From: Arctopsyche grandis
Taxonomy: Eukaryota > Arthropoda > Insecta > Trichoptera > Hydropsychidae
Length of the DNA: 64,000 nt
Direction of reading: 5' to 3'
Assembly (NCBI RefSeq): GCF_051622035.1
Contig: NC_135364.1
Span: 18,475,001 to 18,539,000 of the forward strand
This document shows positions 8,103 through 42,370 of the stretch, one piece after another; position 1 is the stretch's first letter, and each line of letters opens with the position of its first letter. The notes under the pieces are model-generated. The model searched no databases and had not been told where the DNA came from. It worked only from the letters and a program-made list of their open reading frames with translations. A program made the translations under genes and the position numbers.

Positions 8103-8143
8103 ATCACTTGTGCTCCAGTCTCTGAACACAAACGTTCTCAAAA

Positions 8144-9069: not shown

Positions 9070-10116
<1,047 letters not shown>

Positions 10117-10124
<8 letters not shown>

Positions 10125-11080: not shown

Positions 11081-11084
11081 AACA

Positions 11085-11212: not shown

Positions 11213-11253
11213 ATCACTTGTGCTCCAGTCTTTGAACACAAACGTTCTCAAAA

Positions 11254-12114: not shown

Positions 12115-12297
12115 TTAGTCAATTTTAACTAATTTATTCGGAACACAAATGATTTAGTCTTAAGTAAACGAAAATAATAAATATTTATAAAAAAAAATAT
12201 ATTTCTGCATTTTATTCAATTTTTATACCAATATACACATCTATACATTTTCAATTTATCAACAATTTAGGTTTACAGAGTATACATATGTGTACAT

Positions 12298-13482: not shown

Positions 13483-13509
13483 TGTACATACATAAAAGCT
13501 TATTTATTA

Positions 13510-13760
13510 TACACTAGTTGTTTTACCCGGCTTCGCTCAGTTTTTGTAATATAAACAGCGTAAAAATGGCGAATCTAATAGTAAATATTTATTTGTTTTT
13601 TATTGAATTTATTTGAATCGCAAAAAATATCAAATAGTCGTCATAGAAATTTTGACTTGTTTACGAAGTTCCCAATCAAAGATACATACATACATACTTA
13701 CATACATACAAAGTCTCTTTCGAAATTTTATATCAGATTTTGTCTAATTTCAACTAATTT
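13510..13760 (+). mobile_element. ACCCGGCTTCGCTC family repeat
   Basis: Begins CACTAGTTGTTTTACCCGGC and continues CTTCGCTCAGTTTTTGTAATATAAAC, ATGGCGAATCTAATAGTAAA and, near the other end, AAAGTCTCTTTCGAAATT. The same blocks occur in order at 37025-37439 (reverse) and 50998-52250. In all three the outer edge reads CTAG/T, as a Helitron 3' end would, but I could not confirm a hairpin or the TC end, so the class is open. Confidence 0.55.
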
Positions 13761-13811
13761 TAATACATATTATTTTTAAATTTTATATATTTATTTACAT
13801 TAAACTACATA

Positions 13812-14010
13812 TCTATTCAAGATCGTTTCTTATCAGAGTTTTCCAATTTTATCTGATCATTGTTGAAACGGTTCCTTAAAATTGGCAAAAAAATCTTCCT
13901 ACCTGTTGTCACAAATCTTCTGTATTATGTATGTATGTACAATTTGTAAAAATGTATGTACAAGTCTAAAATCCATAGATGTCTCAATGGATTAATGCTT
14001 TCAATTATTG
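13812..14010 (+). mobile_element. tRNA-derived SINE, body fragment
   Basis: Contains the body signature GATCGTTTCTTATCAGAG, CCAATTTTATCTGATCATTG and TGAAACGGTTCC shared with the copies at 36.6-37.0, 46.3-46.5, 46.7-47.0, 62.3-62.7 and 63.1-63.2 kb. The tRNA-like head is missing here; the segment ends after a CATAGATGTCTCAATGGATT block that also occurs in the 36.7 kb copy. Confidence 0.65.
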
Positions 14011-14046
14011 TGCTCAACGTCTGCGTCAATTTCGCCAAGGTAACCA

Positions 14047-14086
14047 ATAACATTATACAAATATTGAAATATTTGTATAATGTTAT
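14047..14086. repeat. perfect 19-nt inverted repeat, 2-nt loop
   Basis: ATAACATTATACAAATATT, two bases GA, then the exact reverse complement. No element boundaries were recognised around it. Confidence 0.95.
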
Positions 14087-14387
14087 GTACGTGTTTTAAC
14101 TATGAGATGATTTTTCAAATAAATAAATTAAATTTAAATAAATAAATTACGCATAAACACCGTAAATACTCGTAAAATGCATCCTCCGAGGAAGAGAGAA
14201 GATCAAAATTTCACTGATACATCACATTCAATTATGAAAATAATTGGCTACCAGACAAATAGGTTAATATATTCCCAACAAGCAACATGTTATTATAAAA
14301 TCAAAATTAAAAAAATATATAACAATGGACGACAACTCTATGAACAGATAATTTTCAGATACAGAAATAAATATTATAAATATACCT

Positions 14388-14430
14388 AATAATAATGGAT
14401 TATATGATTCATTTATAATCCATTATTATT
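14388..14430. repeat. 17-nt inverted repeat
   Basis: AATAATAATGGATTATA at 14388-14404 and its exact reverse complement at 14414-14430. The fragment ATTCATTTATAATCCAT recurs just downstream, so this is a small local rearrangement. Confidence 0.85.
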
Positions 14431-14651
14431 AGATTCATTTATATTTAGATTCATTCATTCATTTAGATTCATTTATAATCCATATTATATATGTACAATT
14501 GTAATTTATCTAAAACTATTATATGTGATAATATTTGCAATTCATCGAAAATGGGAAGACGTTTATGAATCACAGTAGTATATATTTTTAATATGTCAAA
14601 AAAAAATTAAATAAAACATTCAATGTTTGATTAAGTATTAAATACTGAATG

Positions 14652-14843
14652 AAATGATATTTAATTTAACCATTAATAATTTATTTATTATTTATTATTT
14701 ATTTATTAATAGTTTTGGACCATTGTGGCATTACAGGAAGAACCTAATGCGCCACAATGGCCTACATTAGGTTCTTCCTGTAATGCCACAATGGTCCAAA
14801 ACTATTAATAAATAAATTATTAATGGTTAAATCAAATATCAAT
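14652..14843. mobile_element. two LINE 3' tails in head-to-head inverted arrangement
   Basis: Left half: AT-rich tail, then GACCATTGTGGC, a loop containing CAGGAAGAACCTAAT, and GCCACAATGG. Right half: the reverse complement of most of this, ATTAGGTTCTTCCTGTAAT, GCCACAATGGTC, then AATAAATAAATTA. The stem-loop matches the 3' tail of the LINE at 51.4-52.2 kb. The arms are about 80-90 nt and nearly identical. Confidence 0.75.
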
Positions 14844-15790
14844 ATCAATAATAAAATATAGTACTTACATTTAAAATATCAAAGCTAATAAAAAATTAAG
14901 TCGACTAATAAAAATGATTGTTTTTGTGATATCTGCGAATTCCGACTTCCAACTACAATATTTTCATGTGACGACTCATTTTTAATTTAGTCAATTAACC
15001 GGTAACCCCAATACTTTTGAGAAAGCTATTTTTATTTAAAAAAATATATAAAACATCATTCAAGCATTTAAATATGGATTAAAAATGAAAATTATACTAT
15101 AGTCAATATTTTTTTCATTAGTTCATTGATTCAATTGGCGATCACACAAAAACCATTTCATAACCCCATTTGGGGTAAGACCCTTAAGTTGGAAGCCCGT
15201 ATGCTAATCGATTAAAATATCTGAGTATACAATTATTTATTTGGACGAAGAAGATTTGCTGTGTGATTTGCACATTTTTTGTAAAGATTTTCAGTGACTC
15301 ATATATGTACGTAATGAACTTTACATTAATTTCAGTTTAATTCTTTTTATCATAATTAAATCATAAATATGTACAAATTTTATTGAATCAAATATCAATC
15401 CTGAATATTTTATATTAAATATCGCAAAATGACAGTTTGTTTTATTTAATATGAATTACAAAAAAATAAAATAAAATAACACCAATGGAATGTGCGGCAC
15501 TTCGATTATTTAAAATTTAAGATATATAATACTCAATATTCACATACATATATATATATTTTAAATATACGTGTAAGTAATTACCAATGTACGAATATGT
15601 AAAACAAATTACGTATGTCTATTATACACATACGTAGTTCAATATGTATTCTGAATTATCAATGTCCGTCCCACTTTGATCGCTTTTTACAAACTAATTG
15701 AATTATTATCGTGCCCAAATATTTTCCCCTTCCAATCAAATTGATTCGAATATTCTAGTAAAACTGTATCACCAATACACACATGTCTCA
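14844..15790. other. AT-rich intergenic stretch
   Basis: No gene seen between the inverted LINE tails and the promoter of cuticle protein copy C. Confidence 0.6.
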
Positions 15791-15794
15791 AGTA

Positions 15795-15931
15795 CTAAAC
15801 AACTATTAGGTATGCGGAGAAGGATATAAAAGCTTTCCGGTAAATTTTGCGTGACGTGGGTATTTCGACCATCGTCGGGCGGAATCACATAATATATTTA
15901 CTATAAAAGGTGGAGTCGAGCTCCAAACAGT
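15795..15931 (+). promoter_or_regulatory. promoter of cuticle protein copy C
   Basis: TATAAAAG at 15902-15909, initiator ACAGT at 15927-15931, CTTTCCGGTAAA at 15833-15844 (69 bp before the TATA box), then GCGTGACGTGGG. A second TATAAAAG lies at about 15825, immediately before the CTTTCCGG site; its distance to the initiator makes it an unlikely core promoter. Confidence 0.8.
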
Positions 15932-15975
15932 ATCACTTGTGCTACAGTTGTCTCTGAACACAAACGCTCCCAAAA

Positions 15976-16805
15976 ATGGCATTCAAAGTAAGCATACATA
16001 TCCCAAAACTTCACACAAACCCATCTAAAATGATGATTCATCGTTACTAATTGCTTGTTTTTAATTGCAGTTCCTGTTCTTCGCCGCCGTCTTGGCCGTA
16101 GCTCAAGCTGGAGTAGTTCCAGTGGCTCTCACTTCCTCCGAATACGACCACGTCCCTCAATACAGCTACGCATATGATGTCGAAGATGCGATCACCGGTG
16201 ATAGCAAAAGCCAACACGAAACCCGCAACGGAGACATCGTCACAGGACAATACTCCTTGACTGACTCTGATGGAACACGTCGTACTGTTGATTATGCCGC
16301 TGATCCCATCAATGGATTCAACGCCGTCGTCCGTAAAGATCCCCTCGTCCATGCTGCTCCAGTCGTAGCTGCCGCCCCTATCGTAGCTGCCGCCCCTGTC
16401 GTAGCTGCTACCCACACTCTTGCTTCCCCAGTTGCCTACTCTGCTGCTGCTCCTTTGGCTTACTCAGCCGCTGCCGCTCCAGTAGCTTATTCTGCTGCCG
16501 GACATTTGGCTTACAACGCTGCTCCAGTTGCCTACTCAGCAGCATCTCCTTTGGCCTATTCTGCTGCCTCTCCTTTGGCCTACTCTGCTGCCTCTCCTTT
16601 AGCCTACTCTGCTGCCTCTCCTTTGGCCTACTCTGCTGCCGGTCCTTTGGCCTACTCTGCTGCCTCTCCTTTGGCTTATTCTGCTGCCTCTCCTTTGGCC
16701 TACTCCGCTGCTGGTCCTTTGGCCTATTCTGCCTACTCCGCAGCCTCTCCCCTTGCCTACTCGGCCCGTCTTTCCCATGGAGCCAACTTCGCCTATGCCT
16801 ACTAA
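15976..16805 (+). CDS. RR-2 cuticle protein, tandem copy C
   Basis: Exons 15976-15987 (M-A-F-K, donor GTAAGC) and 16071-16805 (acceptor TTGCAG), phase 0, 248 aa. Signal peptide as in copies A and B. The RR-2 domain at about residues 29-95 differs from copy A by a Ser-to-Thr change in G-D-I-V-T-G-Q-Y. The tail begins differently ([10 protein letters not shown]) and carries its own arrangement of Y-S-A-A-S-P-L-A units. The end reads H-G-A-N-F-A-Y-A-Y. The intron is clearly more diverged than between A and B, so this is the older of the three tandem duplicates. AATAAA is at 16866-16871. Confidence 0.96.
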
Positions 16806-16879
16806 TTTGTCGATTTTAACTAATTTATTCGAAACTCAAATGAACTAGTATTAAGAAAACGAAATAATAAATATTTATA

Positions 16880-17717
16880 AAAAATAATATTTCTATATTT
16901 TTTTTCCACCATAATATCAACTTTTGCCTACACATTTTCAATTTATAATTGATCACCATTATGTTGATATAAAAACAATCTCGACATTGAATATATCGAA
17001 CTAGATATATAATTTGCCTCCTCCAATTTTTGTTTCCAGTAACTTTAATATTTTTCTACTAATGGGTCACCAGATGTGAACAAATTCAGGCCAGGTAATA
17101 TTATAATTTTCTTAAATCATATACCCAATTTCTCTTCAGCTTTGATTTTTTATTATATATTTGTGAACTAAATACTTATACTATATACATCCTTTAGTCG
17201 TTTTTTAATCTATACCGCTGAAATAATTTAACAATTTTGGATTTTATGCTATACACCCGAAATAAAAATAATAATGTCATGGGTTAGACTCGCCCATTTT
17301 TTGATTGATTTTTAATTTTTCGGCATTTCAACAAATAATAATATACTTGTAATTAATTATAAAAAAAATATTTATCATAAATGTGATCACATTTTATCTA
17401 AACCTCTTAATTTGAAAATTATCTTATTACTATGATTTTTTTGGAATAATGATTACGATATATATGTATGTACATACATATATATATATATTGTATATGT
17501 ATAATGATACCAATAAATTCACATTTAATTTTCATAAATAAAATATAAAACTAGGAAAATAGGCACCAAAAAAATAAGTCGATACCTTTAAATTTTATGA
17601 AGATATGAAGACTATTACAATGTACTATAATTATTACTACCACATAAAATGAAACGATATATATGTACATACATGTATAATTTGAATTCTAAAAGCATTC
17701 ATTATTAAAATACAATA
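16880..17717. other. AT-rich intergenic stretch
   Basis: No gene seen between copy C and the Helitron-like element. Confidence 0.6.
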
Positions 17718-18120
17718 TCTATATATGTATATGTAAATAAAAATCAATGTTTGCCTGCTGTCTGTCACGTATGCGTTCCTATGCCATTCAACCGATTGCA
17801 ATGAAACTTACATGAATTATTGGATATATGCCCGTGATGGTTTCTGTAAAAAAAATCGCCCGAAAATGGTATCGGGAACGGGAAAACAGGAATGAGTGGC
17901 ATTGCAACGCAATAATTTCAAATGTGTTCGCGTCGCTACCTGCGTTGTTAGGGAAATATAAATAATAAAATAATAATAAACAAACAATTGAATAATTTCA
18001 AATGTGTTCGCCTGCGTTTTTCAAATAAAAATAAAAAATAAACAAACAATTAAATAATTTCAAATGTGTTCGCCGCCTGCGTTTTTCCGAAAATTAACAA
18101 CACATGCCGGGTTCAGCTAG
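17718..18120 (+). mobile_element. Helitron-like non-autonomous element, copy 2
   Basis: Starts TC at 17718 preceded by A and ends GTTCAGCTAG at 18111-18120 followed by T, so the A/T insertion rule holds. The body has the GTCTGTCACGTATG, AAAAAATCGCCCGAAAATGG and GGGAAAACAGGAATGAGTGG blocks shared with copy 1. Near the 3' end a unit starting AATAATTTCAAATGTGTTCG occurs three times in a row, an internal tandem amplification absent from copy 1. Confidence 0.75.
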
Positions 18121-18437
18121 TTAGGAATACATTGCACAGTTAATTATTTATCTGTAATTATTGCCTCAATCCAGCTATATTTTACGTCATGTTTACTGGT
18201 GGTATGTAAAAGAAAGCCGTCTTTATTGTTCTTGTAAAATATGAGCTGAGAGAAATTTGTGTTTTTTAATAGAATTGGGAATAAATTAAACATGTATTTT
18301 AAATGTAAAAAATGTTTTATTTTTTCATTTTACTTTATTTTCTTATATTTATGAACAGTCGTTTTTTATTTTATGTTTTCTTTCGAGAAAGGTTGGAAAG
18401 TCGATTGCATGTTTAATAAATAAATTCTTTGACTAAA

Positions 18438-20107
18438 TTAATAGCCATAAGCGAAGTTGGGTCCATGGGGGATGGCAAGACGGGCTGAATAGGCGAGAGG
18501 GGAAGCAGCAGAGTAGGCCAAAGGACCGGCAGCAGAATAAGCAACTGGAGCAGCAGCGGAATAGGCAACTGGAGCAGCAGCAGAGTAGGCAACGGGAGCA
18601 GCGGCTGAATAGGCAACTGGGGCAGCAGCTGAATAGGCAACTGGGGCAGCAGCAGCAGAATAGGCAACTGGAGCAGCAGCGGTATAAGCCAAAGGAGCAG
18701 CAGCGTTATAAGCCAAAGGACCAGCAGCAGAGTAAGCTACGGGAGCAGCAGCAGCAGAATAGGCAACTGTAGCAGCAGCGTTATAAGCCAAAGGAGCAGC
18801 AGCAGAGTAAGCTACGGGAGCAGCGACAGTACGGGCAGCAATGACAGCAGGGGCAGCAGCTACAACAGGGGCGGCAGCAGCCACGACGGGGGCAGCAGCT
18901 ACAACGGGAGCAGCAGCTACGACGGGAGCAGCAGCTACGGTATGGACGAGAGGATCTTTACGGACAACAGCGTTGAAGCCATTGATGGGATCGGCAGCAT
19001 AGTCAACAGTACGACGGGTTCCATCAGAGTCAGTCAAGGAATACTGTCCCTGGACGACATCTCCGCTACGGGTTTCATGTTGGCTCTTGCTATCTCCAGT
19101 GATGGCATCTTGCACATCATAAGCATAGCTGTATTGTGGGTTGTGATCGTATTCGGAGGAAGCATAAGCTACTGGGACTACGCCAGCACGGGCCACGGCC
19201 AAGACGGCGGCGAAAACCAAGTACTGCAATAAATGAAATAAGCATTTGTTTATTTCTAATTACGTATATTCTGTTTAAATTTAACTACTTAATGCTAAAA
19301 CAAAACAAAACAACAGAAACTATATGAATCTATATTCAATCTTGAAGAAAATTATTTTTTTTTTTATTTTTTTTCAATTTTGCCACAGTGACACTACAGA
19401 TTAGCTCCAAGTCGTCACTATGGCTACACAAAAAATATACAATAAGATGAAAAAATAAAATAACCATAATTAACCATACATATGTATAAGACAAATATAA
19501 AATAGAGCATGCTAAGATCCCAAATTAAACAATCCCTCAACCAGATCAGCATAGTTTAGATTAAACAAGTCCAAACCAATAGAAATCCGGTTGAGGAGCT
19601 TGATGCCCCTGGCAACAGGCGACGAAACCATCAAACTGGGTACGTGCCCCAGGTGAGGAGAATAATTTGCGGTATTTAATGTAGTAGCAACATTATATGA
19701 TAACGAAATTGTTAATATGATAAGAATTGTACATAAGTTTTTGAGCTATTTTTTCTATTATGCTGTACATTAACATTAGAATAATATAATACTATAATTA
19801 CTAACAAAATTAAATAAAAATTGTAAAATAGAAAATGATCAGTAGCTATTAAATTAGATATAAGATGTATTGTGAACATAATTCAGTAACAATAAAAAGC
19901 ATTTAAAAATCAAAAAAAAATTGTTAACGATGCTATGTATGTATGTATGTATATAATGACTGAAATATCAAGCTGATGAAGCTTTACGTCGAGCAGGAGT
20001 TTTGAGGAGTAGGCTAAAACCCTATCTGGGTTGGTCGACCAATGATAGACAAGTATATATTTATTGAATAATGGTTAGGTTGGAGTACTACCCACCTTGA
20101 ATGCCAT
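18438..20107 (-). CDS. RR-2 cuticle protein, convergent copy D
   Basis: Minus-strand gene: exon 1 at 20096-20107 (ATG GCA TTC AAG, donor GTGGGT) and exon 2 at 18438-19223 (acceptor TTGCAG), phase 0, 265 aa. Signal peptide [17 protein letters not shown]. The RR-2 domain is at about residues 29-95 with [15 protein letters not shown] and [10 protein letters not shown]. It is followed by A-A-P-V-V repeats and many A-A-A-P-V-A-Y-S units, ending F-A-Y-G-Y. Its 872-nt intron is far longer than the roughly 84-nt introns of copies A-C because a LINE 3' end sits in it. It faces copies A-C, so an inversion or inverted duplication took place in the cluster. An AATAAA reads on the minus strand at 18365-18370. 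Function as for the other copies: secreted chitin-binding structural cuticle protein. Confidence 0.95.
19370..19690 (-). mobile_element. LINE 3' end inside the intron of copy D
   Basis: On the minus strand one frame reads [14 protein letters not shown], then L-D-L-F and a stop. This matches the A-P-I-P-R-A-I-R-L-L-N-E-I pattern of the LINE at 51.4 kb. It is followed by a 3' stem-loop at about 19381-19432 (GCCATAGTGAC / GTCACTGTGGC) and an A-rich tail. Upstream coding is frame-shifted, and the copy is 5'-truncated and old. It lies in the same orientation as the host gene. Confidence 0.65.
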
Positions 20108-24318: not shown

Positions 24319-27269
24319 AATACATATTTTCCCACCAACTTGTCAAATTTGTATGATTGTATCACAAAATAAGTAAAACTGATGCTATATTTAAGTGTCT
24401 TGATAAATTATTACTTTTGTGTAATCATTACTGTTACATTATCTTAAAATATTTGAGCAGAAAATATTTATTTAAATTTATTTTTTATTGTGATTCAATT
24501 GTTTTTTTTTTTGGTCATAATTTTCATTTATAACTAGTAAGATATACATATGTAAATAATTTGAAAATATGTTTTACTTTTGAACTAGAATTTTAGTAAA
24601 ATGTGCTCCAGTATAAATTGTTGTATAATATCTTCTTTTATATGGAAAATTTTGTTAAGTTGGTCGACTTATGAAATAGTCACAAACACTCCATATTGTA
24701 TGGTAAAAATATGAATTGGGTTGGTGTAGAGTTAAAAAATAGTAAAATGAAAGTCGTATTACATATTAGCAACAAATTCGATTTATTTGTATTTATATTT
24801 TCACATGTCCGACATAATCCTCAAAAGTTGAAATATTACATAATGACTTATACAAGTTTTTTGTTAATGTTGAGTTGTTGAGTTGTAATGGTAGGTAGGT
24901 ATGTATGTATATGGTAAGTGAGATAGTGCTTTGGTGAGGCGAGGGTGGAGGGTCGCAGCCCCTCGGGTTTCGCCCCCTGCGGCACGGCAGCTACTGGTCA
25001 TACCCGGTCAACACAGGTAAAAAACAGTACGACTCACATATGCAATCGTTACATCAATATGTTATTGTATTTAAATTACTTATACTGTTCTCAAATGAAC
25101 GTCGTCCAATGTTTTACAAAAAAACATCAAAATCAATATAGAGAATAAGAGATAAGGCATGATTGCTGAGAGCTTGCCGGCCAAGCCTGCAGCCCATACC
25201 GCACATCAGTTTTATCATTAAAACCGTAAAAAATGAAAACAATCCTTAATATAAAATCACAAATTGTGCTATACTTAAATTAGGGGAATTACAAATATAA
25301 ATGTTGATTGAAAAAATCACAGACATTATTTTCAACGGACACAGACCATTTCTTATTTTTTTTTTAAGTTTTTTTTTGAAAAACAATATATTTTTGTAAA
25401 GCCTCACTATTTCCGCATTCATAAGCCTACATAGAAAACCCTAATTAGTTTTACAACCGAAGGTTTGAAATTTTTTTTCACATTATTTCTTTAGTTTTTG
25501 CAAAGATTACAATCGATTCATTCTCATCACACTCAACACACTCAAGCTAAGTTTTGGCCGAGCGAGCCTAGCGTCGCTCGGATTCTACGAGGTTCCGCAC
25601 AACTCGAAAAAAATAAAAAACAGTCGACACACACTATCCGTTTTCCACGTTTAAATTTATAATTTAATATAATGTAGATAAAATAATATATCAGATAAAC
25701 CCGAGTTTTTCACGTGACCGCCTCCTCGCATGAAGAACTCTTCGCCGTGCCTTCGCACAGGTCCACCCCATAGTCTCAGCAAGCAGACCGATAGATCAGG
25801 ATAAAATATTCGACAACATCTATTAATAATACCAGAATATAACTTGTTTGCTTTTCTCAATATGTACTAAGTTTAGAAAATACCTGAATATTTTTCAAAT
25901 TCAATTTTGTACTGACAGTTATACGTATAACATTTGTGATAAATTTGTACTTTGTATTTTGTTTCATTTTATACATATATACGACATTAAATGCTTCCAA
26001 TCCAGAAGTATTAGACATACATATATGTATATATATAATATTTTTAATTACGGCCTGGCTCATTGCGAAGTAGCGCTCCTATATATATATATAATATAAT
26101 ATCTGACCGAGAGTTCTATCGAAGAACCGCTTGTCCCGCGACAGCCCCAATGATGACGAGCTCATGACCAATGCCTTACATAACATCAATTATTGTTATA
26201 TATATATATATATATAGTATATATATGAATACACTTATTATTTCTCAACACATTTAAGAAGTGCAGTTTGCTAAGAAAAATCATATTTATATATCGTGCA
26301 AGTGGGGTTTTTGCATGTTTACCCACTCATCATAACATTTAATAGTTAATACACCGTATGTTTTATAATTGTAAATATAGTGCAAAAGGTATACTAAGAT
26401 TTTTTAATTTATTTTTTTTACTTTTTTATTTATTGATTACCGAATCAACTCAAAGAAATCAACACTTGGACGGGTACTGTATATAAGATTTATCTTAAAC
26501 TGACATTATCTTAAGATGGAAACTTTTTTTTTTAAACAAAACATACCAATGGAAGTGAGCGATTTGATTGACAAACACAAATCATACAATTAAAATGATA
26601 CTGCACTATATATATATATATGTATGTATACAATATTTATAAAAAGTATTGAGTTCATTAATCTACTATCCACTGTTACACCAAACATCAATAAGATTTA
26701 TATGTATATGCAGAATTTTCAAAACAAGTAAGCTTACAGGTAAGTAGTATGGTATAAATGCGGAATTTCGAAAAACCCAACGAAACACACAACAACAAAT
26801 AATAAATAATAAATAAGGAAAAATAAATAAAACAAAAGAAATTAAAAATTTTTGTTAAATTTTAATTGGATAAATCCTAACAAACAATTATATTAATTTG
26901 CTTCATATCCAACGTAAAACATATATAACATCTATACAACATAAATGATAATAAAAGTAAAAATTAAAGGGTGTTTATACTCCATCAAGAGTTTTTTTTT
27001 TTCAATAAAGGTACAAGTTGTATATATCTTTTAGATTACTGAGTTATTAAAACATGAGACATGTGGTGAGCTCAAAACTGTGTAAGATGTATGTGTATGT
27101 GTGTGTGTGTGTGTGTGTGTCTTATGAATACTTTGCTGCCAAAAATTACGATTGAATATTTGACTTTGTTAAAAAGGAACTACGTTGAAAAAATCCACGG
27201 ACATATATGATGCATTGCCTATTTATTTTTTAATAATAATTATTGTATCATTAAGTTAAGGAAAAAAAA
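24319..27269. other. gene-free stretch, possible continuation of the chinmo 3' UTR
   Basis: No gene seen. A GC-richer patch at about 24930-25010 resembles repeat DNA. A perfect 8-bp stem CCGAGCGA / TCGCTCGG is at 25558-25581. The 3' limit of the chinmo transcript could lie here. Confidence 0.4.
27092..27120. repeat. (GT)n microsatellite
   Basis: About 29 bp of TG dinucleotides, about 160 bp beyond the most distal let-7 site. Confidence 0.9.
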
Positions 27270-27277
27270 AAACAAAA

Positions 27278-27285
27278 TGAGGTAG
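27278..27285 (-). promoter_or_regulatory. let-7 8-mer target site 1
   Basis: The plus strand reads TGAGGTAG, so the minus-strand transcript carries CTACCTCA, a full match to the let-7 seed with the A opposite position 1. Confidence 0.7.
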
Positions 27286-27867
27286 AACGGTAAGAGATTA
27301 TAACGAAAGAAAAAAAAACTAATACCTATTGTAAAGTTAACTCCGATAACCATGAAAACAGTCACCTGGCTCCGTGGAGCTTTGATCTCTAAAAAAAATA
27401 CACCAAACAAACTACGCTGCAGAGATTCAAATCGAAGAAATAAAATGCCGCAGATTAAAGACTACAAAAATCTCCTGTGTGTGTTGATCTCTATGTATTT
27501 ATATGCATGTTATATATTCTTTTCACTTTGTACTGTAATACATAATATAAAACTTTTTAATTATTGCCAGGAAAATTACAATTAGCTGTTGATTTTTCTT
27601 TCAAATTCTTAAACAATCGTAATTTTAACATAGGTGCAATCATATAATATTGAGCTCATCATACACAAACAAATAAACACTTATTGCATATGACGTGCCA
27701 CACAATTATGTATATACTCTTTATATTTCGATGCCTATTTTTAAAACTCACAAATGATATTAGAATATTTTAAAAAACAGTTCATCTACATGTATATTTT
27801 TTTTTTACGTTTAATATGAATTTATTACGTGAGTTTAAATCTATTATAATATTCATTATCTGAAACC

Positions 27868-27875
27868 TGAGGTAG
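27868..27875 (-). promoter_or_regulatory. let-7 8-mer target site 2
   Basis: CTACCTCA on the minus strand, 590 bp from site 1. Confidence 0.7.
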
Positions 27876-27961
27876 CTCATTTTTGTACTATCGATAAGTT
27901 GTGTCACTAAAAAATAATTATAAAACTTAAACTAGAGTATTTTTAAAATAAGATGGTATAA

Positions 27962-27969
27962 TGAGGTAG
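27962..27969 (-). promoter_or_regulatory. let-7 8-mer target site 3
   Basis: CTACCTCA on the minus strand, 94 bp from site 2. Confidence 0.7.
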
Positions 27970-28269
27970 ATAAATTTTAGGATTAAAAAAATATTTAACG
28001 GCTAAGCAGTGATGTTCGTGTGGTGGTGCAAGTTAAGGTCCCTCGCGTTTACGGAGGGACATAGGAACTAGTAACACTGCAAAAGCAGCGCAGCGACGAG
28101 AGGGTCTCCTCACCCCAGTATCTTTGGCTTAAACGCTGCGACTGAACGCTCAAAAATATATAAACATATATATATATATATATATATATATGTGTATATA
28201 TATATATACATATATATAATATAACTAAATAAATATAAACACTAAAAACAATTACTAAATTATAATATT

Positions 28270-28276
28270 TCCCTGA
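28270..28276 (-). promoter_or_regulatory. possible miR-125 site
   Basis: Minus strand TCAGGGA, a 7-mer (seed 2-7 plus A) for miR-125, 300 bp from let-7 site 3. A single 7-mer is weak evidence alone. Confidence 0.35.
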
Positions 28277-28354
28277 AACTTTTTTGAGCACATTCATAGG
28301 GAGAACTAATCTTATTATGTATATAATATATATATTTACGTACATATATACATA

Positions 28355-28355
<1 letters not shown>

Positions 28356-28424
<69 letters not shown>
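28356..28424. repeat. (AT)n microsatellite
   Basis: About 70 bp of AT dinucleotides; a shorter run is at about 28166-28210. Confidence 0.9.
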
Positions 28425-28426
<2 letters not shown>

Positions 28427-29435
28427 AAATATATATATATAATCACTTACTATTGAAATACTGTAAGTATCATAACAAAAATATTTCAAATGCACATCAA
28501 TAGTGTTAAAATCGGCAATAGATGACTGCAATGCATGAAATATGAGTGGAGTCGTAGGTCAGAGCCGACCACAAGTCTCTGGCACGGTATCTTATCGAAC
28601 ATAACACAACTATTTCGAGAATAATTACAAATTTTTGTACACTTACGACTATAATTTTGATACAAACAAAAACAAAAAGTATAACAATTCATAATGGGAT
28701 ACATTAAATTTTAAAAATACATGTACATTATGTTAGGATGTTAATAACAATCATTGTGTTTGAATTCCAATTTGTTTTGAATAGTGTGTTGTGCCTAAAA
28801 GAATACCTTACCAAGAATGGACTTGTAATTTATATATAACATACCTCCATATTATACCCGTTTAAATTCATGCACAGTGTGCAATCACAAAGTTATTAAT
28901 CTGAACCAAATTATACAGTAAAAATAGAAACAAACTTAATTTCACTTCTCAATATGCTCTTCAAACACTTGTAACGATTCGCTTGTTAGTATCGATATAA
29001 CCATTCCCCAAAAAAAAATTGAAAAAATTAATTGAATGTGGAATTAAAAACAACAACATAACAATCGATATAAAGGATATGTCCTAAATTTAAACCATGC
29101 CTAAATAATTTCAATTATATTGCAAAAAAAAAATCAATTATTTATCAATCACTTATTGAAGTATAAAAAAGCTTATTAAGAAAAAATCACAAAAAAATTG
29201 TCTGAATTTAAAATTCAATCGAAAATAGAAACGATAAAATTAAACATAATTTTTCTGTTTAACAGAGAATTATATCACCACACTATATAAAAAATATAAA
29301 TCGAAAAAAATATATTGTATGTATAAACATGCGTGACAACTGAGTTTTACATTTCATTCTTTAAAAAATATCTATTTTAAAACAAAAAATAATATTCCTA
29401 ACACTTACTTCCATCCTTCACAAGCATTCCTCGGA

Positions 29436-29453
29436 TCGGCAGTCGACTGCCGA
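29436..29453. repeat. 18-nt perfect palindrome
   Basis: TCGGCAGTCGACTGCCGA, GC-rich in an AT-rich setting, within the inferred 3' UTR. Confidence 0.9.
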
Positions 29454-32400
29454 CCCATCCAGTATTTATATCTGTGCCTAGTCGTTATTAAATTTGTAAT
29501 AGTAATATCGGTATCGAAACTTAACGAACCGCTTATTCAATAAGTGATTTCTAATCAGACTCCATTTATATTCCAAGTTTGCATAGTAGTAGTATTTTTT
29601 TTTTTTAATTAACAGTAAAGCATATAGGTAGAGACATTCAGATTCACAAATGGAAAAATCATATTGTTTAACATAATAATAAAGAAAGCCGATCCGAACG
29701 ATCCAAAAATATTCAATTAGGGGGGGGGGGTGCGCGATTGGGGGGCACTTGGTGTTCGCAAAATGGCAAAAAACTGTGTCAAATACATATGTAATTCAGA
29801 GCGTGTAATAATATCAGCCACACTGATAAACTTATGCATGTACTGTAAAAATTAAAAACCCTGTTTTTATTTAAATAATTCACATATATGTATGTACTCA
29901 AATCTATTGTAAATATGTAATCATTAAGTTATTTAAAAAAATAAATATTTTTGGCTATTGTTTAAGCTTTGTAATATAAAAATCTGTTTTTAAATGATTT
30001 GATATTTATAATAATTAATAATAATAAAAATCAGCAGCGCTATTGTTAACTATTCAATAATAAATCTCAACCTATTCCATTAACTATATATTGCATCTTC
30101 AATATATATATAATAATATATATATAAATATAAATTATGTAAATGTCATGAATACAATTACTGTATTGCCTCTAAGTTCCGTTCCTGTAATATATTTATT
30201 AATATTGTACTGTAAATGGGTACTGTAACTATTGTTGAAAAAATATAATAAAAATACTGTAATGAGGTAACCACTTATAATCGGAGAAAGCTAAAACACT
30301 TCCTCGTCAAAAAACAGACGGGCTAAATAGACAACGAGCGAGGAATATTTGAGGGTCGGGCAACGGCAGGGGAACAAGGCAAACAGTAAATTACAAATGG
30401 AGACAACACAAACCTTATAGAACAATAAATATACAATAATAATAAAACATGAATGCAACATATCCCTAAATATCAGAGATATCACCTGTTGCTACACTCA
30501 CACACAAAATAAAAATCGAAAATTATAATAAAACAAATTAAAAAAAAAAAAAAAAAAATTAAAAAGTAAATCGTGATTAAATAAGCACATGTGTTAAATA
30601 AAGTAGAATTATTATGCACGTAAAAATTAATCGAGGAGTTTTGGCACTAGCAGGTGTACGTGTGGCTAACGAAAACCACACTAATAATAATAGGTTCACT
30701 TTCCTATTTTTAATAATATAAGGACTATAAACGTAAAATCTACCCGTTGTGACATTTAACCGTTATTTAACATTCATAAGTTAGAGGTATTTTATTTATT
30801 TATTCATTTATTGGATACGGCGGCGTGTGAAAGCTTGTTTGCATATCTAGAGCACAACTCAAAAATCTCCATATTTTATATTATATTATAGTAAATTTGC
30901 AAACACGCTTCACAAAAATTGTACACATGTATGTATGTATGTATGTGTGAAAGTATGCGACGTCTTGTGTGCGCACATACTACATGCAGAAATTATTATT
31001 TTTATAATAAGTATATATGACCTGTTGCACATTAAATGACTAGTCGATAGATTGAAACAATGTTACGACGATTGATCCATTATTAAGTTGGAGCGATTTT
31101 TGAAAGTTAACCAAAAAATTGAATTACCCGTTGCTACGTGTTGTGCAGCAAGTCATCTACCCGTAAAAATAATGCACATCAACATAGGTCATAATAATGT
31201 TGTACATATGTTTCCATTTTTTTTTTTTTATTTAATATACTCCTACTTAATTAATACAGGGATAAGGCTGGATAAAGGTAGAAGGTTTAATTGATTTTTT
31301 GTATGTTTGTTTGTTTTTGTAAATATTGCGTTATATCAACATAGAAGTTTTGTCACTGGTTTTCCCCACAAAAGGTAAATGCAGAAAAAAAAAAAACACA
31401 TTCATTCTTAAAAAACAATCACGCCAACATTGTTTAACAATTACCTAACTAACTATCCTATCTCATTGTACTTTGTACAATCATTTTCTAACATACCATG
31501 GTATAAAACTGTCCATCTACAATATTAACAGATGTGAAAACTGTATATTCCTATGTAAATAAAATTTCGCACCGACTCGCCCCAACAGTGTGAAATTCGC
31601 TTCGGACGATATTGAACAAAATTGAACCGAAGCACACATCCAGTATCACATATACAATTTTACATTACTGATAAAATCAAACGTAAAAAATAAGATGTTT
31701 CAAAGTGTAATAAAAACGAAACTTTTTACTATGATAAAAGTGAATAAAAAAAATATAAACTGATTTGGATCGAAGCGATTGGACACAATTTGGGCGAGTC
31801 GAGACTAAACCCCACAAATCCTCGACGGTTGGAAAAAGTCATCGGACGGCCGGTGCCGCATAGCATACTGATCTATTATTTACACCCGGCTAACGGCGAA
31901 GCCGCCCGCTCCAACCGTCGTTCCCTTATACGCCGATATATTCCCCTACAGAATACAGCTGTTTACGACATATATAATAATATGTACTTTTATATACGTA
32001 ACATTTACATTCTTGACGCTTCACTGATCGTTATTATGATTTACACAAAACTAATCTTCATATTTTTATACACCTAGCTTGTAACTTATAGAGGTAACCA
32101 TCATCTCACAGTCAACTGGACAAAACTTAAAGAATAACAGGTTTTCAACCCAAAGGATTTTTTTTAGGTACTGTAAGAACTTAAGTTATGGTTAAAAAAA
32201 AAAAAACATGTATATCTAAAAAAAAATGCAGTACTTTTCGAAAGTATAGATTTTTACTGCATTACTTTCTGACCATTATTATTTTGTCTATACACATTTT
32301 ACTATTGATTTTTTATTACTTTGTAAATGGCCGTTTCGTATATATTATACACAGTACAACCGATTGTGGTAAAAATAGCTTCATCTTGCTTTTACTATTA

Positions 32401-33224
32401 TTATTATGAATATATTATCTGTTTAATTATTTTTTCTTTATCTTTATTTCTTACAATTAAATATAAATATTTGTAGATCCTTTGAGGTATATCTGTTTCA
32501 TCCTGAATAAAAATTTATTCATTCACAAATTTTGTATATGAAGGCGGTGCCAAAATATATATGAAGACCACAATCTCGTTCTGAGTAGATCAGTATCACT
32601 ACACCATAATATATTATACGCTTTACAAAAAACTTCTCACAACGAGATTTAAAGATCACAGTTATGTTTGTAAATAACAAAAAAAGTAAAAATACATTAT
32701 GTTAAAAATAATTTAACCAGCTATTCGACTTTTGTAATCGCTGTCAGTGTTTCAAAAATGAATTTTAACTCATTTCACAAATGTTTAAAAATCAATGATG
32801 AATTGCACCCGACTATACACAATGCGCCTAAACAACCACGACTGCCCTAATTGCAAACCAAAAACTCTCAAAATAACGTTCATATTTTAAATCGAAAATA
32901 CGCACATATTCAATTATCAATAACAAATTTTGAAATTTTAATGTGTCATCAAATTTATTTTGATATTAATTCATTACTTTTTGATTCACTATTTTTATTT
33001 TACACAATAACAAAATCTAATAAGGCGGAAAACATATCTAATAATAATTATATACAAAATTAAACTATACTTACTTTTTAAGTACATATATAAAATTTGC
33101 TATTATAAGTCAACAGTTTAAAAATTACAACAGTTCGGTCGGTAACTAGGGGCAGTCGTTTTATCGTAGCGTTTAGTAAAATCGAGTGTCAACACACGAA
33201 CGTATATATAAATTATATGAGCGA

Positions 33225-33454
33225 CTACTGTGCGTGATTAGGTAATGGGCCGTGATGTTGTTGAAACTGTTTGAGAGCAGCTTCGTGTTTATGCTCACGG
33301 GCGATGTGTCTCCGCACCGTGTTGTTTCTTGTGAAGGTACGCGCACAGAACGGACAAGGTACCCTTATGCCTTGATGCCGTTGTCGTATGTGTGCCCGTA
33401 AATTTGTTTCGTACCCGTATAGCCTTTCACAAAATGGGCATTTCAATTTTTTAC
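33225..33454 (-). CDS. chinmo: chinmo last exon, two C2H2 zinc fingers
   Basis: Acceptor TTCGCAG, first codon completed from the previous exon as Gly, then K-K-L-K-C-P-F-C. Finger 1 runs from the first Cys pair to H-I-R-Q-R-H and finger 2 to H-I-A-R-E-H, separated by Q-G-I-R-V-P. A short Gln/His tail ends at TAG. The two fingers give sequence-specific DNA binding. Confidence 0.95.
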
Positions 33455-33890
33455 CTGCGAACACACAAACAACATTCAAAGATGATAGATACATCAAGAC
33501 ACATCAAGAACGGGACATGTATGTAACATAACGATTCAACTATCATATTTATTATGACTATTCATACATATGTTTACTACTTCCGTTACGAAACATTATC
33601 CCGTCTTTGGTCAAAATATAAATCAAATCCAACATTCAAATGAAATTTTACCATCTGCAGTAGCTATTCCTCCAGATTTACTCGCTGCTAAGTGTTTAGT
33701 TGGCCATAACGGTATGTCAGGAGGTGCATCAGGAGGAGGTGCGGGGGGAGTAGGTGGTGCACTATATGGCCCTCCTACTCCCCCTCCTCCCCCACCACCG
33801 CCTACTCCACCACTACTGGGAAAGTCTGGCGTTTCCATTTTAACACGTAGGTCTGAAAATGAAATAAATCTTGTATCAAAACTGTGTCCA

Positions 33891-33926: not shown

Positions 33927-36900
33927 TGTTTGAGTAATAATAAATACGGTACCTTCAGCTCCTTGGTCGGCTGACTGCCGGCGTTCACACATTTCATCTG
34001 TAGCACCTCTTTCGTATCCATTATTTGTAGACGCAGAAGAAGGAGGCTGGTGTGAATGGGGAGTGTGCGGTGTGGCAGGACCTGTCCCACTTTCTTCAAA
34101 TCTACTACTACCTCCTCCACATCCTGGCGACGAACGCGTATCTGGTTCGTCACAGCTGCCTGCAATTGAACTTGATGAACCCGGCCTGAAAACAAATTGT
34201 TCCTGTTTAAGAATATGATAGTATACTATTTGAGCTTTGCCTCAATAGAAATTATGAATATACATATATATGTATAGCGTTTGGCTGATAACAAAGTTTG
34301 AGCGTTCAAATTCATCATTTCCAATCAAAATACAAAATTAGTATATAGAATCGGTGACGGGAAAAATGCATTCGAGACAGTTGCACTCTTGAGACATCCA
34401 AGACAAACAAGACATCTTGAGACATTCAGAGATGCTCAAAGAGAACTAACGCAATATAATTCCACAAAAAAGTGTCAAAGGGTATTTGTATGTTATCCGA
34501 GGGTGCTAACCTTTTTTTGTGGAATTCTATTAAGTTCTTTTTGAGCGCCTTTGTTAAAATTATGACTTCTCGAAACTGCGCTACTATTCAGTGCAATTGA
34601 GTGCATCTTTCCGGGAACCATAGAATCACTCATTGAAAATTATATCACTTATCCACTTAAAAATATATTAAATTTCCAAGACCTTCCAGTAGTAGTCAAC
34701 GGAAAACGAATGCAGTATCTTTCCCAGGAAATGTATCGTAGATAAGAAACAAAAATAAAGCAGATGAATAAAAATGTGAGGATCTCAATCAGATCACTCA
34801 TATGATTGCCAGATTTCTTGAGATAATTCAAACGTATCTCGGGATATCGTGGAAAATCAGGAGATCTGGCAACTTAGTCAAAGAATTTTTAAAAAGATTC
34901 AATTCTTGTGAAGTCTTCTTTATTTGGATAGTTTAAATACGATTTGGATTTGATAGTGAGACGGATAGATATGTCTGAAGTAAATTCTTTAGCATTTAAA
35001 ATATTAGCCAAATTTATCATTGTACTTATCAACTAATCCTGATTGTACATAACAACGTCATAGTTATAGTTATTGCAGTTTACGTATTTTAACAAGAGAG
35101 TATAGAATTGTCATAATATAAAAATGGACCGATAATGTGAAGCAAATATTTTTAAGATGTTTGGCCTGAATAATGTGCTATGATAAAAAACATTTATTAC
35201 ACAAAAATGTGAATAAATTTTGTTTTCATTAAAATAAGGAGACTAATAAAAATAGAAAATTTCCAGATTAGAATTTGTAAAATGTTGAACTTTTCCTAGA
35301 ACGTTGATCTAATTAAGAGTACATCAATGTTAGGCATTCCATTTAAAGAGGCTATTTACATAGGTTGCCAAATTATTGATTTGCCAAGAGTGCAAAAATA
35401 TTTCACTATGATACTGCCGGTGTTTGTCACATTGGACTGGAGAAGTACATAGATTGGACAAACAATGGATAATGGGATGATTTTTCTGCATGATTTTCAT
35501 TCGACTTCTTTGGCGATTGGTCAGAAATATACTTTTGACCATTCGTTGTGTTTTAGAAGTGTACCTGTAGTTTCGGGCGTGCGGTGAGGGCGTGGGCGAG
35601 AGTGGTGCCTTGCCATCGCGCAAAACAGAGGAGCGCAACTCAGGCGCTGCGGGCTCCTGAGGAGAGCGCAGCGCTCGACGACGAGGACCCTCGACGAACT
35701 GGTTGACGTGCTGATGATGGTGGTGAATAGGTGGAGGTAGTGGCGGTGCATACGGCCGGTGGTAGGCGGGCAGCGCGTGCAGGTAAGGTGGCAGCGCACC
35801 CCCAAAGGCTGCACCCGGGGAACTATCCGCTTCACCAGCCGCGGCATTTGCGCCCCCACCACCACCCCCGCCCGCTAGGTTGTTCAGCTTCACCTTTCCG
35901 GCAGGCTGTTGGCTCTGCGCCACTGCCAGCTTCTCGTGCTCTATGCTCAACCCCTTCACCTGAAGCAGAAAGTCAAAAGATATTACTATAAGCACTACCT
36001 ATTTCAAAACCAAGCAACCACTAATATGTAGGACTAAACAACAAATGCTATTTAAATTCATTTGAAAGTTGGATGAAAACATGAAAGTTGGATTGAAGAT
36101 AACAAAACTAGTATTATGCCAAGTAATTGATGGAATGTTTTTGTAAATGTTATGTTTACCAAGTCGAAAAATTTGATGCAATCAGCAAAAGCTGCAAAAA
36201 TGTTTCATGTATTTGTGAAATACATGAAACAATTTACGAAAAAAAAAACACTTCGAAATAAAAAAAGTTTTAGATTGATAAAGATTTTTTGGAATCAAAT
36301 AATGCTTTTTAGATAGATAAGAAATCCATGCCTCGCCAGTGTTCAATTATTGCCAAATAATCTTTAAAATGCAGAAGAATATATCATGGAGTAGACTAAA
36401 GAAGCTTTCTAAAAGAAAATGTAAACAAAATGATTCGACTTCTTTCTTAGATTAATTCTAAATAAACAGCTCTGTTATTGGAATTGACATAGCTATATAT
36501 GTATGTTTATATATACATATATCCTAATTATTTTTGTCAAAATGTGGGATACTTCGGAACAATCTAATATTTTATTTTACATAGATACCTATAGAACATA
36601 GACCAGGAAGGCTTGAACAGGAAGACCCCAATGCGCCTTCCTGGACAATTAATTACAAACAATGCAGCATTTTTATTACATAAATCACTGTATTTCGAGA
36701 AGCCGAGGAACACGAAGTTAACAATTAATTAATTCATCTATTGTGACATCTATGGATTTTTAGACTTGTACATAATTTTTTACAAATTGTACATACATTA
36801 ATACAGAAGATTTGTGATAGCAGGTAGGATGATTTTTTCACCAATTTTGAAGGAACCATTTCAACAATGATCAGATAAAATTGGCAAACTCTGATAAGAA

Positions 36901-39900: not shown

Positions 39901-40910
39901 GAAGTCTATTAATGAATGTATTTTTCAAAACTAGTGCTATCTTCTTCATTGTTGTTAAAATGCAATGCTCACAGTCTAAATGCCTAGCGACAATCCAAAA
40001 TACTCAGCAGTTAGAGATTTCCATAGTGAAATTCTGCTATGGTTATAAATTCAGAAATTCCTGTGTAAACCAGTCTTTATAAACATTGACACAGATTACC
40101 CGACCCATGTTCAATGCATTTTTTTTAATACTACCTGGAAAGCCTAACGCCGATCGGCGTTTTGCCAACAAGTCCATGGGCCTGAAAAACGCCAATAGGC
40201 GTTGTATTTTGAGCATGTACAAAGTAAACAAGAATACTACCCGCTAAGTCAGGCCGCACACCAAAACAGCACGCAGCGTGCACGCTGCAATTGCTTCAGG
40301 AAGCATTTATTTTTCATACTACGCCGCGCAGCATATGTTTTGCCCGGTGTGCGCAATAAATGCATTCTGAAGTATTTGCAGCTTGCACGCTGCGTGCTGT
40401 TTTGGTGTGTTTTTCAGGCCCATGGATTTGATGGCATTTGATGGCCCTTTGGATGGCCAGCATTCAAAGTGTTAAGCATGCTACCCCAGGGGCTTTAAAC
40501 ATGTGTGGGCCATGATCGTGTATGTGTTATAACTTTTATCGAGCTTATTTGTGTCTAAAAGTTTTCATACAGAGGAAAATATAGAATGGTTCTGAAAATA
40601 TTTTTGACGAAAAGTGGATACAAAAGTTGAAGCAATGATTGGCTTTTAATATTTGTATTCTCAGGATGGATGAGTGTGGTAGTAACCTGTAAGCTTTCAG
40701 CACTTTTGAGGAAGCCGGAGAGCGCGTCCTGGCTGACGTGCACCTCGCCCTTATACATGAACTCTAGCAGGGCAGCCATATTGGCCGCGCTGGTCGCTTC
40801 CAGGATCACGTAGCAAGGACCCGCATGGCTGGGGGGCGCAGCCGCGAACAGCTCCTGGAAGTGTTTGCTGCACGCCGCCAGGATCAGCTTATGCGCCCGA
40901 AACGTCGTGC
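33225..40910 (-). CDS. chinmo: chinmo, BTB/zinc-finger transcription factor (five 3' coding exons)
   Basis: Nuclear BTB-C2H2 transcription factor controlling temporal identity of neurons and stem-cell or tissue maturation in insects. Exons on the minus strand: 40687-40910 (BTB), 35565-35959, 33953-34185, 33652-33852, 33225-33454. All junctions are GT-AG and the phases agree (0, 2, 1, 1 from the BTB exon onward). BTB residues G-T-T-F-R-A-H-K-L-I-L-A-A-C-S-K and M-A-A-L-L-E-F-M-Y-K-G-E-V-H-V-S-Q, then V-K-G-L-S. Next come the linker motifs S-S-V-L-R-D-G-K and A-E-D-L-R-V-K, both also in fly Chinmo, a Gly/Pro-rich exon, and two fingers (C-P-F-C-E-R-L-Y-G-Y-E and C-P-F-C-A-R-T-F-T-R, both C-x2-C-x12-H-x4-H). 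The stop is TAG at 33225-33227. About 426 residues are visible. The exon for the BTB N-terminus was not found and probably lies past the right edge. Fingers as last exon and the A-E-D-L-R-V-K motif separate it from lola, fru, br and ab. Confidence 0.93.
33652..33852 (-). CDS. chinmo: chinmo Gly/Pro-rich exon
   Basis: Follows the acceptor TTTTCAG. It reads D-L-R-V-K-M-E-T-P-D-F-P, then a glycine run and a proline-rich stretch, and ends I-A-T-A-D with donor GTAAAA. Reading through the donor would stop 8 codons later, after C-W-I, giving a finger-less form if the intron were retained. Confidence 0.85.
33892..33924 (-). repeat. (CA)n run inside a 100-nt chinmo intron
   Basis: About 33 bp of CA on the coding strand within the intron 33853-33952, about 40 nt upstream of the acceptor. 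CA repeats are known intronic splicing signals in animals. Confidence 0.9.
33953..34185 (-). CDS. chinmo: chinmo linker exon
   Basis: The phase that joins both neighbours reads R-P-G-S-S-S-S-I-A-G-S-C-D-E-P-D-T-R to S-A-D-Q-G-A-E, then D-L-R-V-K from the next exon. It is Ser/Gly/His-rich and probably disordered. The longer open frame through this exon is out of phase and is not the protein. Confidence 0.85.
34353..34619. mobile_element. hAT-like MITE in a chinmo intron
   Basis: Perfect 8-bp flanking repeat ATAGAATC (34345-34352, 34620-34627). Left end GGTGACGGGAAAAATGCA; right end read inward GGTTCCCGGAAAGATGCA (14 of 18). Inner inverted blocks AATTCCACAAAAAA are on both sides. Size 267 bp, no coding. 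Confidence 0.85.
35565..35959 (-). CDS. chinmo: chinmo linker exon after the BTB domain
   Basis: Acceptor CTTCAG, then V-K-G-L-S-I-E-H-E-K-L-A-V-A-Q-S-Q-Q, a Gly/Ala-rich run, a Pro/His-rich segment with H-H-H-H-Q-H-V, E-L-R-S-S-V-L-R-D-G-K and P-S-P-H-A-R-N-Y, donor GTACAC. It is GC-rich and very different from the flanking introns. Confidence 0.9.
36600..37024 (-). mobile_element. tRNA-derived SINE, full-length copy
   Basis: On the minus strand: an A-box-like TAGCTCAGTGGTTGC, then a B box GGGTTCGATCC, then the body GATCGTTTCTTATCAGAG. It continues through a CATAGATGTCACAAT block to a 3' stem-loop at 36603-36644 (CCAGGAAGG / CCTTCCTGG with loop CGCATTGGGGTCTTCCTGTT). The head is too diverged to be a working tRNA gene. 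Confidence 0.8.
37025..37439 (-). mobile_element. ACCCGGCTTCGCTC family repeat with an internal insert
   Basis: On the minus strand it starts CTAGTGGTGTTACTCGGC, continues TTGTAATATAAACAGC and ends at the AAAGTCTCTTTCGAAATT block near 37030. Compared with the 13.5 kb copy, about 200 bp are inserted after ATGGC. The insert carries three copies of an 11-bp near-palindrome CGTAGTACTACG or variant (37260-37352). Confidence 0.55.
40146..40203. repeat. two 16-nt AACGCC...GGCGTT palindromes
   Basis: AACGCCGATCGGCGTT at 40146-40161 (perfect) and AACGCCAATAGGCGTT at 40188-40203 (near-perfect), 42 bp apart, next to the foldback element. A related GCCGATCGCCAATAGACGTT occurs at about 43740. Confidence 0.7.
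40257..40409. mobile_element. foldback element
   Basis: 26-nt perfect inverted ends (left at 40257-40282 starting CACACCAAAACAGCACGC, right at 40384-40409). Imperfect pairing continues through TGCATTTATT-type sequence towards the middle. CATGGGCCTGAAAAAC occurs on both sides in inverted form, but on the left it is separated from the arm by about 60 bp. Confidence 0.7.
40687..40910 (-). CDS. chinmo: chinmo exon with the C-terminal two thirds of the BTB domain
   Basis: Acceptor TTTTCAG; the exon starts with two bases that complete a Gly codon, so the previous exon ends in phase 1. It reads T-T-F-R-A-H-K-L-I-L-A-A-C-S-K-H-F through F-L-K-S-A-E-S-L-Q, donor GTTACT. The BTB domain mediates dimerisation and recruitment of co-regulators. 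The upstream F-C-L-K-W-N-S-F part is absent. Confidence 0.95.
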
Positions 40911-41302: not shown

Positions 41303-42370
41303 ATGCATATTACTGCATACATAATACTTTATATTATAATTTTTTTCACACGATCCGGCTGTGACTGTGAAGGATCAAAAACAATCAATATACATATGTA
41401 CATATGGTGTTGTGAGAATGTGTGCTCAAATTGTAATCGTTTCATGTTGCAAATGCCAATCAATGTGCATATTCGAGAATACATCGAAAAGTAGTGGAAG
41501 CAAACGGAAGAAAGTTGAGATAAGGGCTGTGGAGACGTTAAAAAAATACAGCTAAGGCATTTTCTTACAATTAGACACCGACTTTGAAGGATCAAAAGCA
41601 TTCCATATAGTTCTGGGTGGGTATCAATGGTGTTGTGAGAATGTGTATATTACTGCATACATAATACTTTATATTATAATTATTTTCTCACGATCCGACT
41701 GTGACTGTGAAGGATCAAATGCAGTCAATATACATAGATCTGGGTGGGTTTCGATGGTGTTGTGAGAATGTGTTCTCAAATTGTAATCGTTTCATATGGC
41801 AAATGCCAATCAATGTACATATTCGAGAATACATCGAAAAGTAGAGGAAGCAAACGGAAGAAAGTCCTGATACGGGCTGTGGAGACGTTAAAAAAACACG
41901 GCTAAGGCATTTTCTTACAATCAGAGTCCGACTCTGAAGGATCAAAAGCAGTCAATATACATAGTTCTGGATGGGTGTCGATGGTGAGAATATATGCTCA
42001 AATTGCATTCGTTTTATGTGGAAAATGCCAATCAATGTACTATATATTCGATAATACGTCGAAAAGTAGTGGTAGCGAACGGAAAAAAGTGGATGTGGAG
42101 TTGTTCAAAAAAACATGGCATTTTCTTAGAATCAGACTACGACTCTGAAGGATCAAAATCAGTCAATATACATACATATGTACATAGTTCTGGGTGGGTA
42201 TTGATGTTGCATAGATGGGTGTTGTAAACGTGGATGTTTAAATTGTATTCATTTCAAATGGTATATTCCAATCAATGTATTCAAGAATGAAAAGTAGTGG
42301 AAGTAAACAGAAGAAAGTTATGCTCTGTGGAGTCGTTAAAAAAATATAATTTCGAATCTGACTCCAATTT
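41303..42370. repeat. tandem array of about 215-bp GGATC units
   Basis: GGATC-start positions 41372, 41589, 41712, 41939 and 42150, so units of about 211-227 bp plus one truncated unit. A 342-bp step also repeats the leading segment ATATTACTGCATACATAATA (41306 and 41648). Each unit carries TGCTCAAATTGTAATCG, GCAAATGCCAATCAATG, ACATCGAAAAGTAGTGG, GGGCTGTGGAGACGTTAAAA and AAGGCATTTTCTTA. The GGCTGTGGAG and CCGACTCTGAAGG pieces tie it to the CTCCGACTCC transposon family. Confidence 0.8.

Follow-up and report, generated by a model that had tools for sequence, protein, structure and literature searches.

The chinmo-like gene and the DNA downstream of it

The 64,000-nucleotide (nt) stretch of Arctopsyche grandis DNA analyzed here (contig NC_135364.1, positions 18,475,001 to 18,539,000 of the forward strand; hereafter, the window) carries on its minus strand a BTB zinc-finger gene resembling chinmo of Drosophila, followed by some 6 kilobases (kb) in which target sites for microRNAs (miRNAs) of the let-7-Complex (let-7, miR-100, and miR-125) are concentrated. 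We consider this downstream DNA, from 33224 to about 27200, to be probably the long 3′ untranslated region (UTR) of an insect chinmo orthologue under let-7-Complex control. Coordinates are window positions, with single positions on the minus strand denoting 5′ ends, and word searches covered both strands of the 64 kb.

Minus-strand exons starting at 40910, 35959, 34185, 33852, and 33454 join into one open frame of 426 residues, closed by TAG at 33227-33225; AG precedes each of the five exons and GT follows the first four. The coding features are as follows.

40687..40910, minus strand: chinmo-like exon, second part of the BTB domain (Pfam BTB, 4.2e-16; AG/GT and frame checked)
35565..35959, minus strand: chinmo-like exon (VKGLSIEHEKLA..., low-complexity linker; AG/GT and frame checked)
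33953..34185, minus strand: chinmo-like exon (linker; AG/GT and frame checked)
33652..33852, minus strand: chinmo-like exon (linker; AG/GT and frame checked)
33225..33454, minus strand: last coding part, with the C2H2 finger pair and the stop codon (Pfam zf-C2H2_4 and zf-C2H2; frame and stop checked)

The protein assembled from these exons (427 residues as submitted to Pfam) has an N-terminal BTB domain and a C-terminal pair of C2H2 fingers (Pfam zf-C2H2_4, 1.7e-07; zf-C2H2, 1.1e-06), as expected of a chinmo orthologue; the exon with the first part of the BTB domain was not found by motif search in the window. An earlier reading of this DNA, made from its letters only (the sequence-only reading), had called the gene chinmo. 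Both domains bear out that call; the name itself is based on the zinc-finger sequence of the fly protein, the presumed match. A solved-structure search with the gene product returned other C2H2 proteins among the 60 matches listed, and scans of genome and viral contig collections free of insect genomes with the finger protein of 76 amino acids (aa) yielded 50 and 10 pattern matches, respectively, none of them a relative. Upstream of the BTB exon, open frames at 41332-42104 on the minus strand contain repeated peptide blocks that suggest local duplication.

let-7 sites in the inferred 3′ UTR

The inferred UTR and its let-7 sites, the latter located by word match, are listed from the stop codon outward.

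27200..33224, minus strand: inferred 3′ UTR, ~6.0 kb (let-7-Complex site density compared with the rest of the window)
32483..32489, minus strand: let-7 7mer-A1 site, TACCTCA
32091..32096, minus strand: let-7 6mer site
30784..30789, minus strand: let-7 6mer site
30263..30269, minus strand: let-7 7mer-A1 site, TACCTCA
27962..27969, minus strand: let-7 8mer site 1, CTACCTCA, predicted to be very accessible (99th percentile within the folded stretch)
27868..27875, minus strand: let-7 8mer site 2, CTACCTCA, predicted poorly accessible (16th percentile)
27278..27285, minus strand: let-7 8mer site 3, CTACCTCA, predicted accessible (97th percentile)

The three 8-mers, which the sequence-only reading had placed on the chinmo strand, lie where it put them to the base, and they are the only copies in the window. 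Its count of seven GAGGTA hexamers (minus-strand TACCTC) was likewise correct: seven of the window's 11 minus-strand copies fall between 27279 and 32489, where the opposite sense has a single copy, at 28842. Comparison with shuffled sequence, a check suggested at the same time, finds the 8-mers in excess. In 100 whole-window dinucleotide shuffles, three copies never arise (shuffle mean, 0.65), and neither do they in 1000 Markov simulations per order for orders 1, 2, and 3 (means of 0.017, 0.018, and 0.082); these simulations model the region scored in the counts below, 6024 nt of the minus strand from 33223 to 27200, which begins 1 base later than the UTR at 33224. For the hexamer, the seven copies compare with simulated means of 0.44, 1.04, and 2.70 (reached in 0, 0, and 16 of 1000 runs). 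Order 3 is the most permissive, with 0, 3, and 16 of 1000 simulations reaching the observed 8-mer, 7mer-A1, and 6mer counts.

When 303 nonsimple 7-mers with at least three copies in the scored region were ranked against both strands of the whole 64 kb, TACCTCA came first, all five of its copies in the window being in this region and in the sense orientation. Seed sites on the sense strand thus exceed chance, as they should in a let-7 target. Agreement over the 50 positions flanking the seven let-7 sites averages 16.0 and reaches at most 24, against a background mean of 14.9 (standard deviation, 3.6) and maximum of 23. A repeat origin of the sites was considered and rejected, both by these unrelated flanks and by comparison with the 20 of 28 direct repeat families listed.

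miR-100 and miR-125 sites

Ranking 56 insect miRNA seed families by their sites in the scored region puts let-7 first, with five sites of at least 7 bases versus 0.2 to 0.4 expected, and miR-100 second, with four versus ~0.3 expected (Poisson p of 1.7e-4 to 2.7e-4, uncorrected for 56 families). Extending the region to 26400 leaves the same two in the lead. miR-125 is fifth and not significant; at orders 1, 2, and 3, 68, 127, and 103 of 1000 simulations reach its one site, so that the region lacks the miR-125 signal of a fly-type let-7-Complex target. The sites, all word matches, are as follows.

31158..31165, minus strand: miR-100 8mer site, TACGGGTA (seed ranking)
31125..31131, minus strand: miR-100 7mer-A1 site, ACGGGTA (seed ranking)
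30741..30747, minus strand: miR-100 7mer-A1 site, ACGGGTA (seed ranking)
28855..28861, minus strand: miR-100 7mer-A1 site, ACGGGTA (seed ranking)
28270..28276, minus strand: miR-125 7mer-A1 site, TCAGGGA, single and not above chance (simulations)

ACGGGTA is sixth of the 303 7-mers, with four of its seven window copies in the scored region, and the antisense strand of that region has no miR-100 sites; an extra miR-100 8mer at 33418 lies in the zinc-finger coding sequence and was counted outside the UTR. Over the three miRNAs, the scored region holds 10 let-7-Complex sites of at least 7 bases (0.49 expected), as many as the remaining 121,976 nt, and the minus strand has no such site between 27199 and 19230.

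Third in the ranking of this region (27200-33223, minus strand) is the miR-305 family, with six sites of at least 7 bases versus 1.2 to 1.4 expected, at least two of which overlap the TTACAGTAC motif.

Probable extent of the UTR

Two AATAAA words are of particular interest as candidate polyadenylation signals.

32994..32999, minus strand: AATAAA, candidate proximal signal, preceding every let-7-Complex site in the UTR (word match)
27222..27227, minus strand: AATAAA, candidate distal signal, 51 nt past the last 8-mer, with ATTAAA at 27234

The density of let-7-Complex sites stops at the distal signal, ~6.0 kb past the stop codon, and the longest stop-to-stop frame within the inferred UTR is 109 aa. 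The sequence-only reading had taken the sites to imply a 3′ UTR of at least 5.9 kb; such a length is supported by a let-7 excess specific to the sense strand and the region and by the accompanying enrichment of miR-100 sites. Because let-7, miR-100, and miR-125 are cotranscribed in flies (PMC9247461), the joint enrichment of let-7 and miR-100 sites is a further argument for one let-7-Complex-regulated 3′ UTR.

Alternatively, the chinmo mRNA might end early, at AATAAA 32999 or 32959, leaving the sites in a separate noncoding RNA or in untranscribed DNA; the let-7-Complex excess would then belong to that RNA or be a coincidence. A transcript using one of the minus-strand signals at 32999, 32959, 32519, and elsewhere would indeed stop short of most or all of them. 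We nevertheless regard this as unlikely, since sites for two miRNAs that flies cotranscribe are enriched only on the strand of the gene, 0.7 to 5.9 kb past its stop codon; the window has no Rfam match at the gathering threshold; and the 3′ UTR of fly chinmo is very long too, reported as 8.5 kb (PMC7192631). Processing at 32999 or 32959 could produce a short isoform lacking every let-7-Complex UTR site, and the UTR may end later than 27.2 kb, e.g., at AATAAA 26434 or 26413.

Within the inferred UTR, two long AT microsatellites (28156-28223 and 28316-28441), for which mutual pairing is possible, lie between the distal 8-mers and the sites nearer the stop codon.

Site quality, control scans, and competing explanations

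We place the probability that minus-strand DNA from 33224 to about 27200 is the long 3′ UTR of an insect chinmo orthologue, controlled by the let-7-Complex, at roughly 0.78. Several observations count against it. miR-125, the known fly partner of let-7, has one weak site that does not rise above chance; of the four miR-100 sites, three reach only the 7mer-A1 class, and all four are average in predicted accessibility (35th to 60th percentile); and local folding predicts one 8-mer, site 2, to be buried. Pairing beyond the seed was compared with that of shuffled upstream flanks at 12 sites and is clearly better at none of them (lowest fraction, 0.15); extra 3′ pairing by let-7, miR-100, or miR-125 was rejected on this comparison. 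On the minus strand, an excess of T over A persists on balance to ~25 kb, and composition does not place the end of the UTR at 27.2 kb. Finally, the 19 control scans (the antisense of the inferred 3′ UTR and nine further segments on both strands, with four families listed per scan) yield outliers of their own: miR-980 at 2.7e-5 in one scan, more extreme than let-7 and accompanied by miR-317 at 9.5e-4; miR-307 at 8.9e-5 in a second, between let-7 and miR-100; and miR-317 at 4.7e-4 in a third. Single Markov p-values of such size therefore arise without a UTR and are best taken as ranks. The outlier sites share flanks, as expected of duplicated sequence (best pairs, 50, 49, 37, and 36 of 50 positions); the best pairs of let-7 and of miR-100 sites, by contrast, agree at 24 and 20. 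No let-7-Complex member is among the four families listed for each control.

The existence of control outliers is one ground for supposing that everything described here is chance in an AT-rich stretch of 6 kb, noticed after the fact. Nor does the tight spacing of the 8-mers decide the matter by itself, as 118 strand-specific low-copy 8-mers (at most four copies on their own strand, a word and its complement being counted apart, which enters the let-7 word twice) have at least three copies within 692 nt in the window. The hexamer TACCTC, moreover, is ordinary window-wide, its 18 copies comparing with a shuffle mean of 14.8 and being reached in 25 of 100 shuffles, and any signal thus lies in its placement. 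A purely accidental pattern is nonetheless very improbable: the let-7 seed was the prior expectation for chinmo, and chance fits neither the simulations nor the strand controls nor the separate miR-100 signal.

A narrower alternative accepts the let-7 sites as functional and ascribes the miR-100 matches to chance or to another ACGGGTA-binding factor. It overlaps with the preferred explanation, their odds not being exclusive, and we rate it somewhat below even. The three 7mer-A1 sites have A opposite position 8, and a shared AACGGGTA occurs three times; the Poisson values stand uncorrected, and two of the 19 control scans hold a more extreme family. The lack of a 3′ pairing excess and the unexceptional accessibility point the same way. 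Against this, the chance that two of the three let-7-Complex members take ranks 1 and 2 of 56 is ~0.002 by simple arithmetic, the families listed in the 19 controls include no member of the complex, and the flanks of the outliers are repeat-like, whereas those of the miR-100 sites are not. A functional miR-100 arm is, to our minds, a good prediction from these words and ranks, if not quite an even bet.

Other features of the window

Among 89 nonsimple 8-mers tested for strand and region bias, the top word is TTACAGTA (binomial, 1.7e-8), with seven sense copies in the inferred 3′ UTR (minus-strand 5′ ends at 32176, 30262, 30228, 30215, 29848, 28466, and 27538), two elsewhere on the minus strand, and none anywhere on the plus strand of the window; five of the copies are part of the longer word TACAGTAC. 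The 8-mer may represent an RNA-binding motif of its own, with no known factor matched, and a literature text search for TTACAGTA, UUACAGUA, and UACAGUAC as whole-word named motifs gave no match.

Elsewhere in the window, insect cuticle protein genes are clustered at 6279-19229 (all four tested carry Pfam Chitin_bind_4), with near-identical copies at 8261 and 11371. A 156-aa open frame on the plus strand (51398-51868) has no Pfam match at 0.01; we presume that it resembles the tail of a retrotransposon reverse transcriptase.

Discussion

That Drosophila chinmo is a let-7 target, as the sequence-only reading stated, is backed by the let-7 sites reported, together with miR-125 sites, in the fly 3′ UTR (PMC4979967, PMC7192631). 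A 1.4-kb fragment of that UTR, tested in reporters, holds six let-7 and four miR-125 sites (Chawla et al. 2016, PMC4979967), let-7 being given as the stronger repressor of the two in fly reporters (PMC4979967), and a FlyBase paper cites chinmo in support of additional miRNA targets in extended 3′ UTRs (PMC4528329). The A. grandis gene resembles fly chinmo as a BTB zinc-finger gene with a long 3′ UTR (8.5 kb reported in the fly, ~6.0 kb inferred here) and several let-7 sites (six in the fly fragment; five of at least 7 bases plus two 6mers here). It differs in the partner, which in the reported fly fragment is miR-125 with four sites and here would be miR-100 with four, next to one weak miR-125 site, and also in that the fly sites are reported as reporter-tested, whereas ours are known from sequence. 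Another BTB zinc-finger temporal gene is likewise described as under let-7-Complex control, with three let-7 sites, yet its partner is miR-125: miR-100 complementarity was searched for there too, and the available text reports let-7 and miR-125 sites only. A limited literature search found no report of chinmo as a miR-100 target, which is not proof of absence.

The timing of such control may be supplied as in the cockroach, where let-7, miR-100, and miR-125 are reported to increase jointly during the last nymphal instar, around the 20-hydroxyecdysone peak (PMC3462697), although the available text of that study names no chinmo target; chinmo itself has been proposed as the juvenile stage regulator of insect metamorphosis (PMC12848571). 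We envisage that one transcript would run from the gene to an end close to AATAAA 27227 and that A. grandis would make the let-7-Complex miRNAs; as these miRNAs rise toward metamorphosis, they would repress Chinmo through their let-7 and miR-100 sites, the three distal 8-mers presumably being the strongest of those for let-7. Were a proximal polyadenylation signal near 32.96-33.0 kb used instead, the mRNA would lose every one of these UTR sites and escape this control. Silencing of chinmo by the let-7-Complex through let-7 and miR-100 instead of let-7 and miR-125, perhaps switchable by proximal polyadenylation, is a proposal we advance tentatively, at slightly less than even odds. The polycistron and the target would be those of flies and the second arm a different one; the general design is already known from flies, and the miR-100 sites are the new part.

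In the literature consulted, so far as the available texts go, let-7-Complex control of chinmo is documented for flies only. If the explanation favored here is true, a site-dense chinmo 3′ UTR in another insect would place the timing circuit in a second lineage or species, and miR-100 would gain a chinmo target through its sites.
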